A stretch of DNA of 58,451 nt, from positions 1 through 58,451 of the forward strand of contig JAUZRW010000058.1 in the NCBI GenBank assembly GCA_030950085.1. Reading direction: 5' to 3'. The position numbers and the translations under genes are program-made. Below, one piece after another: positions 49,933 through 58,338 of this stretch; the first letter of the stretch is position 1, and each line of letters opens with the position of its first letter. Source of the DNA: Anaerolineae bacterium. Lineage in GTDB: Bacteria > Chloroflexota > Anaerolineae > Aggregatilineales > Phototrophicaceae. The notes beneath the pieces were generated by a model. It searched no databases. It saw nothing but the letters and a program-made list of their open reading frames with translations, and was not told the DNA's origin.

Positions 49933-50194
49933 AGAAAATCTTTCTCATTAGAATCGTTGATAGGCGCGTCATTATAGAATTAGCTACTAAAACTCACAAG
50001 CTAGGAAAACACAGCGAATTAGAGAAATCTAAGTCTGATGTCAACTATCACTCAAAATGAAGAACTTCTCAAGCATCATTCTTGCTATCGAAACGATTCT
50101 ATTTGTGTTTGAAGCACCGCAATTTGGAACTATTGTTGCTTAAGTCAAGTATCCTCAGTTAAACTAGGGCAAACCACAATAAAGGATTTTGAGA

Positions 50195-51097
50195 ATGGCT
50201 TTGCGACGCTTTATTTTGATAGGTCTCCTCTTTATTGGAGTAAGTGTGCTGACTGTGAATACGCTGGCACAATCCGATTTGGATGCTGCGTTCACATCTC
50301 CAGATGAAACCTTCACTCTACATTTTCCCTCCACTTGGGATATAGATGATGCCGATGCTACATTTGTTGTCTTATCCAATGATGCACTAGAAGTTTATGC
50401 TTATTCTACCGTGACGATTGACAGCCTTGTTCTTGACGCATCAACCCCCACAGAGGTTGTTTCTAATCTAGCCAGTTTTGTTGATTTTGTGGGCGATGAT
50501 ATCCAGTCAACAAGTATTGATGGACGGGCAGCTGCTGTGGTTGCTGTCGAATTCAATAATAAAAGCGGTGCGCTTATTCTCATTGAGATGGACGACGGTG
50601 GCTACGGCTTATTGATGGTTCTCGGCGCAGGGGCAGCGTTAGAGAGCAATGCAAATCTGGTTATTCGTATTGCTGCTACTTACAATCTCCCCAATGTTGT
50701 CAATAATAACACACTTGAAGACACACCTGCCGTCACCCTATTAGAAGAGATTGCTAGAGCTATCACACTAGAAACCGCTATTCCAGTAATTGAAGAACCA
50801 GATGATAACGATAGCACGGTAGATACATCACAAAATGACGATAGCTCGGATGATAGTAGCGCGTCCGACAGTAGCAGTGCCGCCGATGCCCTGCGTGGTG
50901 ACGATAGTTCCGATGACAGTGACGAGTCCGACAGTAGCAGTGCCGCCGATGCCCTGCGTGGTGGCGATAGTTCCGATGACAGTGACGAGTCCGACAGTAG
51001 CAGTGCCGCCGATGCCCTGCGTGGTGGCGATAGTTCCAATGACAGTGACGAGTCCGACAGTAACAGTGCCGCCGATGCCCTGCGTGGTGGCGATTAA
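50195..51097 (+). CDS. Secreted protein with acidic Ser/Asp tandem repeats
   Basis: A 300-residue exported protein of unknown function. Signal peptide (LRRFILIGLLFIGVSVLTVN, cleavage after TLAQ), then a domain of about 170 residues (LDAAFTSPDETFTLHFPSTW ... GYGLLMVLGAGAALESN) of PsbP/'DUF1795-like' look, then four near-identical 21-residue units, S-S-D-D-S-D-E-S-D-S-S-S-A-A-D-A-L-R-G-G. The units are strongly acidic with one arginine each. The protein could bind calcium or form an extended stalk. Start at 50195 with AAGGA 9-10 bases upstream. Confidence 0.75.
   Translation: MALRRFILIGLLFIGVSVLTVNTLAQSDLDAAFTSPDETFTLHFPSTWDIDDADATFVVLSNDALEVYAYSTVTIDSLVLDASTPTEVVSNLASFVDFVGDDIQSTSIDGRAAAVVAVEFNNKSGALILIEMDDGGYGLLMVLGAGAALESNANLVIRIAATYNLPNVVNNNTLEDTPAVTLLEEIARAITLETAIPVIEEPDDNDSTVDTSQNDDSSDDSSASDSSSAADALRGDDSSDDSDESDSSSAADALRGGDSSDDSDESDSSSAADALRGGDSSNDSDESDSNSAADALRGGD
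50837..51097 (+). repeat. Coding tandem repeat, 63-bp unit x 4
   Basis: Four head-to-tail copies of a 63-base unit (ending GATGCCCTGCGTGGTGGCGA) with only scattered substitutions, so recent expansion; the second and third units are the most alike. The number of units should vary between strains. Confidence 0.85.
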
Positions 51098-51475: not shown

Positions 51476-52402
51476 ATGAAGTCTAGTCCTAAATCCAACA
51501 AACGTATTTTCTTCACGTTCTTGTTACTCATGACTCTCTTATTTTCCATTGCTCAAGTATCTGCCCAAGATGATGGTGGTGATGACTACGGCGATGAGTA
51601 TGGTGATGACTATGGCGACGACTACGGTGATGACTACGGCGACGACTACGGTGATGACTACGGTGATGACTACGGCGACGACTATGGTGAATACGGTGAT
51701 TATGGCGACTACGGCGGTTTTGAGGACTTTGATGATTTTGGCGATTTTGTCGAAGGCGGTAATGCCGGAGGTGAATCTGTTGAAGCGACATTCCCCATTA
51801 ACGGCACAGATTTAGAAGGCAGCCCTACAGAGCAACAGCAGCAACTTTGGGATGCCTTCACGCGAATCATCCCAGCAGACAGATTGCAACAGATATCTAA
51901 ATTGGAAGTTTTTAATGACCCCGAAACATCCGGTTATGTTTATCAAGATGAAAACGACCCCACAAAGTTCGTTTTGGGCTTAAATGTGGCAGAACTTGAT
52001 AATCCAAATGAACTCACACGCACGATTATTCATGAATACGCCCACATCCTCACCCTCAACCCCGAACAGGTTAATGGCACATTAGCGAGTGGCGGCTCTG
52101 GCACTTGTTCTACCCTACAACTTGATGAAGGCTGTGCAGGTGCAGATTCTTACATCAACCAATTCAATAGCCAATTTTGGGCAAACTCAACAGGGACAAC
52201 AGCCAATCAATTCGTCACTGAGTATGCCGCCACCAATATCGCCGAAGATATGTCCGAATCCTTCACCGCCTTTGTCCTACAGGCGAGACCAACAGGCAAT
52301 ACCGTTGCCGACCAGAAGATTAATTTTTTCTACAACTTCCCTGAACTGGTGCAACTAAGAAACCAAATTCGTGCAAATATGGCAAATACAAGCGGCGGTT
52401 AA
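51476..52402 (+). CDS. Secreted candidate zinc metallopeptidase with DYGD repeats
   Basis: A 308-residue exported protein. Signal peptide (FFTFLLLMTLLFSIAQVSAQ), then about 55 residues of DDYGDDYGDEYGDDYG-type repeats, then EDFDDFGDFVEGGN. From about residue 105 a globular domain contains LTRTIIHEYAHILTLNP, an HExxH zinc motif, and 60-70 residues later AEDMSESFTAFVL, whose Glu could be the third zinc ligand of a gluzincin. A Cys pair (GTCSTLQLDEGC) between them may be a disulfide. I know of no named family with this layout. GGAG is 9-10 bases upstream of the ATG. Function as a peptidase is inferred from the motif. Confidence 0.75.
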   Translation: MKSSPKSNKRIFFTFLLLMTLLFSIAQVSAQDDGGDDYGDEYGDDYGDDYGDDYGDDYGDDYGDDYGDDYGEYGDYGDYGGFEDFDDFGDFVEGGNAGGESVEATFPINGTDLEGSPTEQQQQLWDAFTRIIPADRLQQISKLEVFNDPETSGYVYQDENDPTKFVLGLNVAELDNPNELTRTIIHEYAHILTLNPEQVNGTLASGGSGTCSTLQLDEGCAGADSYINQFNSQFWANSTGTTANQFVTEYAATNIAEDMSESFTAFVLQARPTGNTVADQKINFFYNFPELVQLRNQIRANMANTSGG

Positions 52403-52511: not shown

Positions 52512-53777
52512 ATGAAAAAATCAACCTTTCTCGGACTCCCCTATTGGCAAGTGGTATTGGGGGTCGTCTTTCTCTCGCAAATGTTAACGGCTGTCGGCTT
52601 CTCGATGGTCTTTCCCTTTTTACCGCTTTATGTTGAAGACCTCGGCTCGACACATGGTCTGAGTGTCGAAGTCATGGCAGGGCTTGTTATCAGCGCACAA
52701 GGTCTCACGATGATGATTGCTGCGCCGATTTGGGGGGCAGTTGCTGACCGCTATGGGCGTAAATTGATGATTATGCGTGCGATGTTTGGTGGGGCTATTC
52801 TCTCGGCAATGATGGGTATGGTTAGTAGTGGCGAACAACTCATTTTCTTGCGTGGTGTACAAGGTATCGTCACCGGAACAGTGGCAGCGAATAATGCACT
52901 CATCGCCGCAACCGTCCCGCGTGAGAAAATCGGCTTTGCTATGGGAACACTACAAGTTGGTTTGTGGGGTGGTGTGGCATTGGGTCCATTACTAGGCGGT
53001 GTTATGGCTGATATGTATGGTTACGCCATGCCATTTTACATCACAGGTTTCTTGTTATTTCTGTCCGGTATCTTAATTTATTTTGGTATCCACGAAAACT
53101 TCGATAGCGAAAAAGCCAAAAATGACGCTGAGAGACGACTTGGCTTGATGGCACAATGGCAGCATGTCATGAGTGCTAATGGTGTGTCGATGGTTTATAT
53201 GATGCGTTTTCTAGCAGGTGTCGGGCGTTCGCTCATTATCCCGATTACGCCGCTCTTTATCTTGTCGCTCTTGCCGCCGGATGCTGCCAACACAAGCATT
53301 TTCACAGGGTCTGTGATGGCTGTTTCATCGGCTACCGCGACCATAAGTGGGATTTATCTGGGACGCTTAGGAGACCGTATCGGGCATCGGATTGTCTTGA
53401 TGTGGGCATCTATCGCTGTGGTCGCCTTTTATATTCCACAAGTTTTTGTGGTGAATGTCTGGCAATTGCTTGGATTACAAGCCTTAGCCGGCTTCGCAAT
53501 GGGCGGCATCATCGCAGCACCCTCAGCCTTGCTTGCTCGCTATACAGAACCCGGCGAAGAAGGGGCAGTGTATGGTCTCGATAATTCGATTGTTGCTGGC
53601 GCAAGGGCAATCGCGCCACTTGCAGGGGCTGGAATTGCCTTGTGGTTTGGTTTGCGCGGCACATTCGCAGCAACCGCCCTCTTATTTGTGATTGTAGCTG
53701 TCGCATCGGTGCTGTTCCTACCCGATGATAGCCTTAAGACACGGCAACAACTCCAACCTTCAGCCGCAGGTGATTAA
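52512..53777 (+). CDS. MFS transporter, drug-efflux-like
   Basis: A 421-residue major-facilitator protein with 12 membrane helices. Signatures: WGAVADRYGRKLMIMRAMFG between helices 2 and 3 (the G-x-x-x-D-R-x-G-R motif), GVALGPLLGGVMAD in helix 5 (the antiporter motif C, G-P-L-x-G-G), and LGRLGDRIGHRIVLMW for the second half. Motif C points to an H+-coupled exporter (MdtG/TetA-like). The substrate is unknown. It lies 110 bases after the metallopeptidase gene and converges with the dioxygenase-reductase fusion 2 bases away, with no visible terminator. Confidence 0.9.
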   Translation: MKKSTFLGLPYWQVVLGVVFLSQMLTAVGFSMVFPFLPLYVEDLGSTHGLSVEVMAGLVISAQGLTMMIAAPIWGAVADRYGRKLMIMRAMFGGAILSAMMGMVSSGEQLIFLRGVQGIVTGTVAANNALIAATVPREKIGFAMGTLQVGLWGGVALGPLLGGVMADMYGYAMPFYITGFLLFLSGILIYFGIHENFDSEKAKNDAERRLGLMAQWQHVMSANGVSMVYMMRFLAGVGRSLIIPITPLFILSLLPPDAANTSIFTGSVMAVSSATATISGIYLGRLGDRIGHRIVLMWASIAVVAFYIPQVFVVNVWQLLGLQALAGFAMGGIIAAPSALLARYTEPGEEGAVYGLDNSIVAGARAIAPLAGAGIALWFGLRGTFAATALLFVIVAVASVLFLPDDSLKTRQQLQPSAAGD

Positions 53778-53779
53778 CG

Positions 53780-56700
53780 TTACGCTTGTGTCCCCCCGTG
53801 TCCGGGGAAAGCTGCGCCATCTGGGATAGATTCATCTAATTCATCTGAGGAAATGTTGGCTAAAGACAATCCTAATAGCTCAAGTTCGATGGCGAGTTGT
53901 TTGTAATATTCTTGTACAAGAACAGGCACAGATTTAAGGACACGCATGAGGTCATCACTCGCATTCTCAACCACTTGTGCTTCGTGTTTTTCAAACAAGA
54001 TAATGCCTTCGCGGAGCATCACCTTGAGGTTGTACATAACTTTCAAATCGGCATCCGCACAAACGCCGCAGAAGTGGCTCAACTGCACAAAAGATTGTTG
54101 ATAGCGTTTTTCGTCACTTTCATTTTGTAATTGGTATAAGCGGTCTTTCATCACCCGATTAGCGCCTCGCACCAATTTATAAGAATCGGAACGTGTGATA
54201 ATCCCCATTTGGTCTTGCAACCAACGTATATCTTGATGAATATCGCACAATCCTAATGTGACCCACCAGATATTTTGTAAATCTTCATCAATAAGCCCAT
54301 CTAAATAGCTCACTAAAAAGCGCCGATGTGATTCAATCAAAAACTGGATTTTGAAAGGAGTCAATTCTTGGGGGTCTTCTTGATAGGTCGATTCTAAAGT
54401 CGCAAAATCGTAATCATTATAGAGCGCATTTTCCATGCCCACGACCAAATAAAGATAGCGAACCCATTGTTTGAACACATTTTCTAAGGTCACAAAATGC
54501 AAGCCATCTTCATTGAGACCGATACCCCAAACACTATCAAAGTTCATGCGGCGCATACTGCCTAGCTCATACATGCCCAACAAGGCATCCACTTCTGAAT
54601 TGACATGATGTAGTACAGTCTGATATGGTTGCGTGGCATCAAGCCCTGCATTATTCGCCATGATACGTTCGCCACCGGCATGAAGAAACATGAAATCGCT
54701 AATATCATATACTTTGCCGCTAATGGTCATCCAATAACCTGCTTTTGGGTTGTTATGCAGGATGAGTTCCGAAATATTGTATTGTTTGCTGTCTTGTGTA
54801 TTGCCGGTATACGTCGTGAAAATATCTTGCATGAAGCGCCCTTCGGCAACCATCACGCGCAACATTTCATCCGCTAAATTAGGGTCATTGCCGTTAAATT
54901 GCATCATCACGTCTTTAATCGCATTCATGACCGAAACAGCAAATCCTGTGCGACCACAAACGTATAGATAAGCGCCCTTGCCACCCTCTTCTGGACTCCG
55001 CATCAAATCCCAAAGGGCTTGGGCGTTAGCTGGCATTTGCATCAGTTTATCAATTCGTTGTCGTTGCCCTTCCTCAAGGACATAGCGACTATTCTCGAAA
55101 CGCAGTGCAACGTCTTCGCCAGAAAATGCCACGCGCAAGTTCAGTTCTTGTCGCGCTTCCATCTGTTCAAAAGCCTCTTTGTAGTAAATTTGCTTGGCAG
55201 TCCGTGTGCCAAAAAAGAGCCAGTTTTCGCCACTATCCGCTTGCTGTGTCCGTGCTTGTAGAAAACCCCAAAAGGGCGCAATCCCAGAACCTGCTGCAAA
55301 CATGACAATTGGACGCTGTGGGTCACGCGGGAGATGAAAGCGCATCGTTGGAATAATGGCTATACCAACTTGCTTGCTTGTCCCGTCTTCATCATTGGTT
55401 GATGTTGAAATACGGCGCAAGAAAGACGACGCTGTGCCTGCCCTTTTTTCATTGAAAGAATAGGGTGTCTGAGGTGTTTCATATTCTAAGCCACCGACGG
55501 TTAAATGCAGTGTTTCTTCTTTGCTATCTGGCTGCATCGCTGAGGCAATCGAATAAAGACGAAAGACTTCCGGCCGCACAACACGACAAATACTCTCAGC
55601 CTCCCATGGGCTCGCTTTCCAAAGACGACGAGTATCAAAGCGTCCAACATATAAAATATTGAGCAAATCCCACAATTCCCATTGGTCTTCCATACGGGCA
55701 TTAAGAACGCGCCGCAAGGTCTCATTAGCACTCAGCGCAAAGAGGCGTTTCCCTATTTCACGGGTTACGGGGCGAATTTTGCCAAATTTGAGAATAGTAC
55801 GAAGCGGCAATGTTTTTTCTTCGCCTGTATATTCCGGTCTGAGGCGTAATGCTTCTTGCCATTGTTGGGTTAAGGCAACTTCTTCGTCGCCGGCTGCTTG
55901 TAAAGCATGTAAGGTTTCTTGTATCAGGAAATCTGAATTTTCGACTAAGACTCCAACTCTATCACCCGGTTGATAATAAATGCCTTTTTCGGTAATGTCG
56001 AAGGCGATAAAGTTAATCCATTGTCCGGTCTGAGGGTCAGTGCTAATGCTGCCAGATGTTGGTTTGACAGCATCCACATATTGATTGCCATGCAGATATC
56101 GTTCATCACGAGTCAACGCCAATTCGACATCAATCTTATCCCAAGTGCGGTCTTTGAAGAGTCCGGTAAACTTCGCACCCGTCGTTACCGAACGCCCGAC
56201 CTTGAAGGCGACTTCCAAAAAACCATATGCTTTCAAGCGATGAACTCCCAAAAAGCCTTTATCACTCGCATAAGTATCAACCAGAGAGTTATATAAACCA
56301 CGTAACACTTGATTGCCCGTTTTCTCAATATATTCTGGAACAGAAACTTGTTTGACGGCTTCAACGAAATTGCGCGTATGGAGTGGTGCGTGTTCAGCTA
56401 AAGAAACTGCCTGCTTGCCAAGTTGCGATTGATAGCGCGTGCGTGGCAAAAAGGCATCCATCATATGGAAATGGGCGATGGCTGTCCCGCTCGGACTCGG
56501 CACGCCCTCAGAAATCGGAACAGCAAACGGCGCGACTGTTTTCGCCCAAATCACTTGGTCAATATAGGTTTTGCTGTAGGGGTTGGGGTCAATTTTCTGA
56601 TAAATCGTCGAAGACAGATATTGTAAGTTTTCGATAATGCGAATAAGTTCGGTTTCTAAGCCCGTGTTATCGTCGTTGACAACTGCTTCTTGTGCGCGGA

Positions 56701-57283
56701 TAACCGCATTCATAATAGAGGTAAAACCCGCAGCAACTTCGACCTGTCCCATATAAAAAGCACGCTCTGTTTCATTGCCGACAGTCGGAAATAACAAATC
56801 CATATTTTCCACAGTGCGCGGATTCTTGATGTTGGAGTCCCGTAGTTTCCAGTTATTGAGGATTAAATCAACGTAAGATAGGTACGGTTTTGCTTTGTTC
56901 AAGCGCCGCGAAACTTCTGTCCATGGTTGCATGATATTCGCTGGCAGGGGTGCTGGGTCTATTTGGATATGATGATAAGCATGGGCAAAGACCCCTAACA
57001 GAGATGAGGCACGCAATAAATATTTATCGGGAACAGCTTGCACAGTCCCCGACAGATACGGCATGGCATCTAGCACACGGCGCAATTCGAGTGTTTTATG
57101 CAGATACGGCAAATTCTCTGCCATCTCATCCCATGCAGCATGACTCTCTGGCATTTGCAATAAAGGAGGGTGAAGTGGTAAAAAGCCAGCACTGGCGCTC
57201 AAATATCCTAAGTTTTCATGTCCCTGTTGCTGGTTAATACGTTCAGCTTCGTTTAGAACCTCGCGTGCAGGTACAGTTTTCAT
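53780..57283 (-). CDS. Indoleamine-2,3-dioxygenase-like / FAD-NAD(P)H reductase / cytochrome b5 fusion
   Basis: A 1167-residue multidomain redox protein. Residues about 90-400 match the IDO fold: VFAHAYHHIQIDP, LPANIMQPWTEVSRRL, YLSYVDLILNNWKLRD, GQVEVAAGFTSIM and EHAPLHTRNFVEAV, whose His (about 302) fits the proximal haem ligand. Residues about 410-800 are a ferredoxin-reductase-type module without FMN domain: YQPGDRVGVLVENS, RLYSIAS (FAD), AAGSGIAPFWGFLQAR, LFFGTRT and YLYVCGRTGFAVSVM (NAD(P)H). Residues about 830-912 are a cytochrome b5 domain with haem His in FLHAGGE and VLHHVNSEVDALLGMYELG. The last 250 residues are an all-helical domain of unknown role. Start at 57283 (MKTVPAREVL) with AAGGA 8 bases upstream. 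No membrane segment or signal peptide: cytosolic. The domain set suggests a self-sufficient haem dioxygenase; the substrate need not be tryptophan. Confidence 0.8.
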   Translation of the reverse strand: MKTVPAREVLNEAERINQQQGHENLGYLSASAGFLPLHPPLLQMPESHAAWDEMAENLPYLHKTLELRRVLDAMPYLSGTVQAVPDKYLLRASSLLGVFAHAYHHIQIDPAPLPANIMQPWTEVSRRLNKAKPYLSYVDLILNNWKLRDSNIKNPRTVENMDLLFPTVGNETERAFYMGQVEVAAGFTSIMNAVIRAQEAVVNDDNTGLETELIRIIENLQYLSSTIYQKIDPNPYSKTYIDQVIWAKTVAPFAVPISEGVPSPSGTAIAHFHMMDAFLPRTRYQSQLGKQAVSLAEHAPLHTRNFVEAVKQVSVPEYIEKTGNQVLRGLYNSLVDTYASDKGFLGVHRLKAYGFLEVAFKVGRSVTTGAKFTGLFKDRTWDKIDVELALTRDERYLHGNQYVDAVKPTSGSISTDPQTGQWINFIAFDITEKGIYYQPGDRVGVLVENSDFLIQETLHALQAAGDEEVALTQQWQEALRLRPEYTGEEKTLPLRTILKFGKIRPVTREIGKRLFALSANETLRRVLNARMEDQWELWDLLNILYVGRFDTRRLWKASPWEAESICRVVRPEVFRLYSIASAMQPDSKEETLHLTVGGLEYETPQTPYSFNEKRAGTASSFLRRISTSTNDEDGTSKQVGIAIIPTMRFHLPRDPQRPIVMFAAGSGIAPFWGFLQARTQQADSGENWLFFGTRTAKQIYYKEAFEQMEARQELNLRVAFSGEDVALRFENSRYVLEEGQRQRIDKLMQMPANAQALWDLMRSPEEGGKGAYLYVCGRTGFAVSVMNAIKDVMMQFNGNDPNLADEMLRVMVAEGRFMQDIFTTYTGNTQDSKQYNISELILHNNPKAGYWMTISGKVYDISDFMFLHAGGERIMANNAGLDATQPYQTVLHHVNSEVDALLGMYELGSMRRMNFDSVWGIGLNEDGLHFVTLENVFKQWVRYLYLVVGMENALYNDYDFATLESTYQEDPQELTPFKIQFLIESHRRFLVSYLDGLIDEDLQNIWWVTLGLCDIHQDIRWLQDQMGIITRSDSYKLVRGANRVMKDRLYQLQNESDEKRYQQSFVQLSHFCGVCADADLKVMYNLKVMLREGIILFEKHEAQVVENASDDLMRVLKSVPVLVQEYYKQLAIELELLGLSLANISSDELDESIPDGAAFPGHGGTQA

Positions 57284-57649: not shown

Positions 57650-58093
57650 TTAGGTATAATAGATAATCGCACGACAAAGATTAGCGCGAGAAAGACTTCC
57701 GACCAATTTTCCTTTATCAACCACTGGTAAACAACGAATTTGCTTTTCTATCATGATGGTTGCCGCTTGAGCCGCTTCATCGTCTAATTTGAGCGTAATT
57801 GAGTTTTTAATGACAATTGGGCTGATGGGGTAATCGGCTAAATCACTCCCTTTACGAATGAAAAAATTGAAGGCATCGGCGAGTGTCCCACCCTCATCAA
57901 TCACATCGTCAAAATTAGGGAGTACAGCGCGTAACAAATCACCCTCAGACAGCACACCCACGAAATTTTTATCCTCGTCCACAACCATAATATCACTCAC
58001 TTCGGCAATACTAATGATTTCGGCGGCACGGCGCATATCTTCATCTTCTTGTATAAAAATAGGATGAATCGTCATAATTTCCTGAATAATCAC
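57650..58093 (-). CDS. CBS-domain-pair protein
   Basis: A 147-residue protein made of two CBS domains (residues about 5-65 and 85-147) forming one Bateman module: IMTIHPIFIQEDEDMRRAAE, VSDIMVVDEDKNFVGVLSEG, then SITLKLDDEAAQAATIMIEK and IRCLPVVDKGKLVGSLSRAN. Such modules bind adenosine nucleotides and sense energy charge. Start chosen at the GTG of 58093 because AAGGAG sits 6 bases before it; the ATG at 58111 would place the ribosome site inside the coding sequence. No effector domain is attached, so it should act on a partner protein. Confidence 0.88.
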   Translation of the reverse strand: MIIQEIMTIHPIFIQEDEDMRRAAEIISIAEVSDIMVVDEDKNFVGVLSEGDLLRAVLPNFDDVIDEGGTLADAFNFFIRKGSDLADYPISPIVIKNSITLKLDDEAAQAATIMIEKQIRCLPVVDKGKLVGSLSRANLCRAIIYYT

Positions 58094-58338
58094 ATTTTTC
58101 TCCTTAGACAATGACTCAATGATGATGAGTATCTATAGCAAACTTTACCCTTAAAAATGGATTCTATCAACATTGAGGCAATCCAAAAGCTGCTGATGTG
58201 GTCAACACATGCTATGCTCGTATCACCTCAATAAATAGGGGCAGAGTGGAAACAAGCGAAAAAGCGACGATATTCTGACGGAAAAACAAAGAGAAAAGCG
58301 CTACAATATCAAGAAATAAGCGCAAACAGGAAAAGTCG

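Follow-up and report, generated by a model that had tools for sequence, protein, structure and literature searches.

What does an indoleamine 2,3-dioxygenase (IDO)-type fold do when it is joined, in one polypeptide, to its own supply of electrons? A gene of an Anaerolineae bacterium raises this question, and the electron source of IDO-type enzymes in cells is still debated, so that a natural fusion with a reductase and a cytochrome b5 provides a directly testable case. According to PMC13142367 and works cited there, human IDO1 is supported in vitro by P450 reductase with or without cytochrome b5, although the operation of this route in vivo is called unclear, and cytochrome b5 is reported as a cellular reductant of IDO1. 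Literature searches of open-licence papers returned no description of an IDO-reductase-b5 fusion. The window, i.e., the whole stretch of DNA analysed here (58,451 nucleotides), is an entire contig (C221) of a 5.1 Mb assembly; its relevant features are collected in Table 1.

Table 1. Positions of the fusion gene, its domains and key codons, and its neighbours in the window
Feature	Position	Strand	Remarks
Fusion gene	53780..57283	(-)	IDO fold - FAD/NADPH reductase - cytochrome b5 - helical domain, 1167 aa
IDO-fold domain	56072..57274	(-)	residues 4-404; Pfam, structural match, profile match
Lys248-Ala251 codons	56531..56542	(-)	Ala251 at the position of the 'VRP'-motif Arg in ordinary IDO
His302 codon	56378..56380	(-)	ligand proposed in the earlier note; one residue before the axial-His column
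Thr303 codon	56375..56377	(-)	occupies the column of the axial His346 in human IDO1
FAD/NADPH reductase	54818..56071	(-)	residues about 405-822; CysJ/P450-reductase type, no FMN domain
Cytochrome b5 domain	54557..54772	(-)	residues 838-909; Pfam 1.6e-13
C-terminal helical bundle	53876..54487	(-)	residues 933-1136; one helix of ~80 residues
CBS-pair protein gene	57650..58111	(-)	153 aa; Pfam CBS 5e-24; directly upstream of fusion
MFS transporter	52512-53777		downstream of fusion, convergent

Architecture and distribution of the fusion protein

The fusion gene is a single open frame on the minus strand, with its ATG at 57283, its stop at 53780 and an AGGATG a short way 5' of the start. The encoded protein has four Pfam matches above curated cut-offs, namely IDO (1e-30, residues 29-234), FAD_binding_1 (2.7e-9, 418-605), NAD_binding_1 (1.8e-13, 661-782) and Cyt-b5 (1.6e-13, 838-909). 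AlphaFold, run on a 41-row alignment and yielding predicted models without cofactors, gave a full-length model that is confident over the whole chain (pLDDT 89.3, pTM 0.89). Fusion by chance is ruled out because full-length orthologues with 37-50% identity keep the domain order, and the fusion is confirmed as a real single protein. The four-part architecture described in an earlier note on this DNA is thereby borne out by Pfam domains and by orthologues of identical order, and the motifs named there were all found in the protein.

A scan of 84,980 species genomes with two peptide patterns recovered at least 58 loci, mostly from Actinobacteria and Chloroflexi, with three from Armatimonadota and one MAG each under the labels Proteobacteria, Chromatiaceae, Alphaproteobacteria and Polyangia; such MAG labels, and MAG gene content, may be erroneous. 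The survey of homologues proposed in the earlier note thus found the same domain order in full-length orthologues across several bacterial phyla. Within its own class the fusion is patchy (4/298 genomes, the window genome included). No relative was found among IMG/VR viral contigs. Plasmid relatives were rejected, as the matches listed cover the reductase (CysJ-type) part and none reaches 80% of the query, and membership in a defence system was set aside after PADLOC matched neither the fusion nor the CBS protein.

Individual loci vary. The L058 orthologue (L058:1746-6146) carries two cNMP-binding domains at its C-terminus (Pfam 5.1e-33, two stretches). In the L049 orthologue (L049:1318-6048) the frame runs on into C-terminal saccharopine-dehydrogenase-like NADP-binding and C-terminal domains. 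L014:1492-2631 holds the b5 and C-terminal part alone, beside a contig end and with an in-frame stop upstream, possibly as a frameshifted or broken copy. At L024:14512-17568, near the bacillithiol gene bshB1, a protein of 1018 aa combines PIG-L, NPCBM-associated and cNMP-binding domains, and long PIG-L ORFs resembling it are found close to the L034, L037, L046 and L013 orthologues. A general link to bacillithiol was rejected: bsh genes adjoin only a few orthologues (L024, L034, L037), and BshA has no match above the cut-off in the window genome.

IDO similarity of the first ~400 residues, on which the earlier reading depended, is firm. The domain scores 107.3 bits against PF01231 (cut-off 26), over profile positions 8-217 of 412 only. 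Profile comparison with ordinary bacterial IDO-like proteins (hhalign) gave an E-value of 1.9e-41, and in VIA-align the predicted model of residues 4-404 superimposes on human IDO2 and IDO1 with Z scores of 38-40 and an rmsd of 2.0-2.5 over 344-361 residues.

The reductase is closest to sulfite reductase flavoprotein (SiR-FP) and P450 reductase, with a match to PDB 1ddg at 1.1e-29, a VIA-align Z score of about 38 between the predicted model and the SiR-FP structure, and an NCBIfam CysJ match of 1.8e-39 that lies under the equivalog cut-off. Its RxYS, AGSGIAP-type and CG motifs are kept in nearly all family rows, as is an aromatic residue at the position where CysJ ends. Pfam lists no flavodoxin/FMN domain in the fusion up to E = 1, in agreement with the earlier note. 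The adjoining b5 domain likewise proved as described there, with intact haem ligands: both axial histidines and the HxGG motif are present, and His868 and His892 are invariant (58/58 rows).

The C-terminal helical bundle folds confidently when modelled alone (pLDDT 91.1). Trp940 and Asn952 are invariant in it, and His986, Arg988 and Glu1098 nearly so; the idea that the conserved polar residues form a metal site was abandoned, since no known metal motif was recognised. Members share no Pfam family in this part, PDB sequences gave no weighty match, and the best structural match (Z about 8) lies within the range of unrelated helical bundles. A search of 251 genomes of the phylum with this domain recovered the fusion and, apart from it, a single copy at a contig end. 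A C-terminal helical module is upheld, with no clear relative by Pfam, PDB sequence or structure; the regulatory or substrate role that the earlier note assigned to it is putative.

Altered haem-ligand and tryptophan-binding positions

The earlier note had proposed His302, in the motif PLHTRNF, as the haem ligand. We placed the axial-His column by three alignments: hmmsearch to PDB chains, hhalign to bacterial IDO-like proteins, and a combined MAFFT alignment. All three match Pro300 and Phe306 to the canonical P and F that flank the axial His, and so the canonical ligand falls on column 303. The stretch from Pro300 to Phe306 is free of gaps, and His302 is therefore offset by one from the axial column. 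The motif thus marks the right IDO segment, but its histidine sits one residue off. At the canonical column of the MPxxHRxF segment the axial haem His is absent from the window protein, which has Thr, and from most relatives: Trp occupies column 303 in 50/57 rows with a residue there, and His in three, all from Armatimonadota. Column 302 holds His in 50/57 such family rows. Five proteins from four MAGs (L024, L035, L058, L064, L073) have His at neither position; column 302 is Asn, Ala or Tyr in these, and the remaining IDO domain is conserved. With the axial column at 303 and these five members lacking both histidines, the assignment of His302 as IDO haem ligand is not supported in the form given, although a local shift might conceivably let His302 bind haem. 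Two of the five, L024 and L035, are fusion copies from one genome, that of Chloroflexi bacterium 54-19.

The Arg that binds tryptophan has changed as well. Its column, that of the VRP motif (IDO1 Arg231), is Ala or Gly in every row with a residue, by both MAFFT and hhalign, and the GTGGT loop of IDO is altered in the fusion family. Lys248, about one helical turn before the Arg column, is invariant (57/57 rows) and may have taken over the role of the lost Arg.

The axial column of two ordinary-length IDO-like proteins has also changed, to Gln in L076 (its sister L077 has His) and to Asn in L008. With the axial His missing in these 2/10 ordinary IDO-like proteins, the column is not absolute even outside the fusion family and, taken alone, may mislead.

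A conserved CBS partner and fused signal domains

The fusion had been described as standing in an isolated genomic position. This is contradicted by the CBS-pair gene, which has the same strand as the fusion and is its immediate upstream neighbour in 55/56 loci that include the fusion start and upstream DNA, the exception being L062. The two genes are separated by 366 bases in the window and by 15 to 759 bases across loci; in loci with a fused FHA domain, that domain makes up part of the distance. A correlation of CBS and fusion distances (0.97) was set aside as proof of pairing, since shared descent predicts a high value. The CBS protein has two CBS motifs and keeps the G-x-x-S-x-x-D type motif; by analogy with its family, it may be an adenine-nucleotide sensor.

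Further signal domains are attached to either gene. An FHA domain is fused to the N-terminus of the fusion protein in 33 loci and a receiver-like domain to the CBS protein in 13; nine loci have neither and none has both. These counts come from related genomes and do not represent independent events, and the receiver-like call combines a sub-threshold NCBIfam match (3.6e-13) with our own reading. RidA genes lie upstream in ten loci, every one with a receiver-type CBS protein. Of all features of the system, the CBS partner and the additional FHA, receiver-like or cNMP domains point most clearly to regulation.

Other window neighbours include TPR, DNA methylase, rhodanese, cytochrome oxidase and Rho genes; as the earlier note had stated, kynurenine-pathway genes are absent from among them. 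Two window proteins have no Pfam match up to 1e-5: one (51476-52402) is predicted and exported-looking, with GDDY repeats and a HEYAH motif, and the other (50189-51097) ends in several SSAADALRGGDSSDDSDES-like repeats. Elsewhere, the genome encodes a separate ordinary IDO-like protein with the axial His (G000:C173) and three Cyclase-family genes; kynureninase-like matches in it stay below the cut-off. Across loci, neither a substrate clue common to all fusion neighbourhoods nor a recurrence of NO-response genes was found.

Proposed function and alternatives

It is attractive to propose, at close to even confidence, that a regulated NADPH-FAD-b5 chain feeds an altered IDO-type site and that the enzyme is probably an oxygenase, not a plain tryptophan dioxygenase. 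The large protein and the CBS protein would form a conserved two-gene redox module. Electrons would pass from NADPH via FAD to the fused cytochrome b5, which would deliver them singly to the IDO-fold domain, and this domain would activate O2 on a small substrate, probably not tryptophan. The NADPH-consuming activity could be gated by the CBS protein and, in many lineages, by an FHA, receiver-like or cNMP-binding domain. We infer which way the electrons flow, that the IDO domain contains haem, that it acts as an oxygenase and that the activity is regulated. A stoichiometric supply of NADPH is easier to reconcile with monooxygenation or O2 reduction than with dioxygenation, because in the latter electrons are needed only for priming the haem. 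In MarE, ascorbate as electron donor moves the outcome towards monooxygenation (PMC12312684).

In favour of a gated oxygenase we count the content and order of domains, the confident model with its IDO and SiR-FP folds, the intact b5 and reductase motifs, the near-constant CBS neighbour, the mutual exclusivity of FHA and receiver-like domains, the cNMP domains of L058, and the literature on IDO1 reduction and MarE. Against it stand the non-His axial column in most members, the five proteins without either histidine, the lost Arg, the altered GTGGT loop and the lack of a shared substrate clue. Of these, the altered ligand position is the strongest argument against haem binding, electron receipt and oxygenation by the IDO domain.

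That position underlies an alternative which we consider unlikely but serious, a haem-free IDO fold whose former haem side is filled (by Trp303 in most members) and which binds a substrate or effector, electrons from b5 passing to another site or to a partner protein. The predominance of Trp in the axial column and the loss of His302 from five otherwise conserved domains that also lack His303 are as expected of such a protein. However, most members retain His302, the Armatimonadota retain His in the canonical column, the b5 and reductase would be left without an obvious acceptor, and the axial column, as L008 and L076 illustrate, may mislead.

Improbable, in our view, is an enzyme that acts like flavohaemoglobin, as an NO dioxygenase or O2 reductase, but uses the IDO fold, with a haem that handles NO or O2 and requires no organic substrate (for general background on NO dioxygenases, see PMC3820574). 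It would follow flavohaemoglobin logic, a single polypeptide containing both haem and FAD/NAD(P)H reductase, yet NO-response genes do not recur in the neighbourhoods, conserved polar features of the Lys248 type suggest a bound organic ligand, and the additional b5 would be superfluous. Least credible is the view of the earlier note, a self-reducing tryptophan or indole dioxygenase with His302 as axial ligand: the IDO fold and Pfam score, the known support of IDO1 by b5 and reductase, and the conservation of His302 in most members speak for it, but the gapless offset of the axial column, the loss of the VRP Arg, the changed GTGGT loop, the separate IDO-like gene with axial His and the lack of a kynureninase above the cut-off in the genome speak against it. 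The label 'self-reducing dioxygenase' must still be counted as inferred.

A bolder claim is that this widespread, signal-gated redox module has an IDO-type fold without the canonical haem ligand and tryptophan Arg, provided with a built-in NADPH-FAD-b5 chain, and now performs chemistry or sensing unlike that of any known superfamily member; we consider this possible but on the doubtful side. The IDO fold is strongly conserved despite the changed haem and substrate residues. The fusion also represents an additional family of redox enzymes in which a sensor-like partner is strictly retained, and it occurs in cultured actinomycetes that are amenable to gene deletion.

Comparison with known systems

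With IDO (PF01231; human IDO1 and IDO2) the fusion has the fold in common over ~350 residues, as also seen in the profile-profile match; it differs in the Thr or Trp of the axial column, the exchange of the VRP Arg for Ala or Gly, the altered GTGGT loop, and the fused reductase, b5 and helical domain. The core fold is also that of the heme-dependent aromatic oxygenase superfamily (IDO, TDO, PrnB, MarE), which is defined by a histidyl-ligated haem (PMC11904535, PMC11791213), whereas haem ligation in the IDO domain of the fusion is putative, and the residues in the aligned columns speak against the canonical ligand. A second parallel is that MarE varies in its reactivity with an electron donor from outside; members of that superfamily, unlike the fusion, have no fused reductase.

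The reductase part resembles the CysJ/P450 reductase module (1ddg SiR-FP), with which it aligns structurally at 28-29% identity, in its FAD and NADPH domains and in the aromatic residue where CysJ ends, but it lacks the FMN domain and continues into b5 and the helical domain. Like self-sufficient P450s of the BM3 type and flavohaemoglobins, the fusion would unite an oxygen-active domain and its NAD(P)H reductase within a single polypeptide. It differs from these in that an IDO fold replaces the P450 or globin (no globin domain matched, the first domain being the IDO fold), b5 replaces the FMN domain, and a CBS partner gene is present. The partner itself has the two CBS motifs with G-x-x-S-x-x-D type sites of CBS-pair nucleotide-binding proteins, from which it is set apart as a dedicated neighbour of the fusion that is joined to a receiver-like domain in some lineages.
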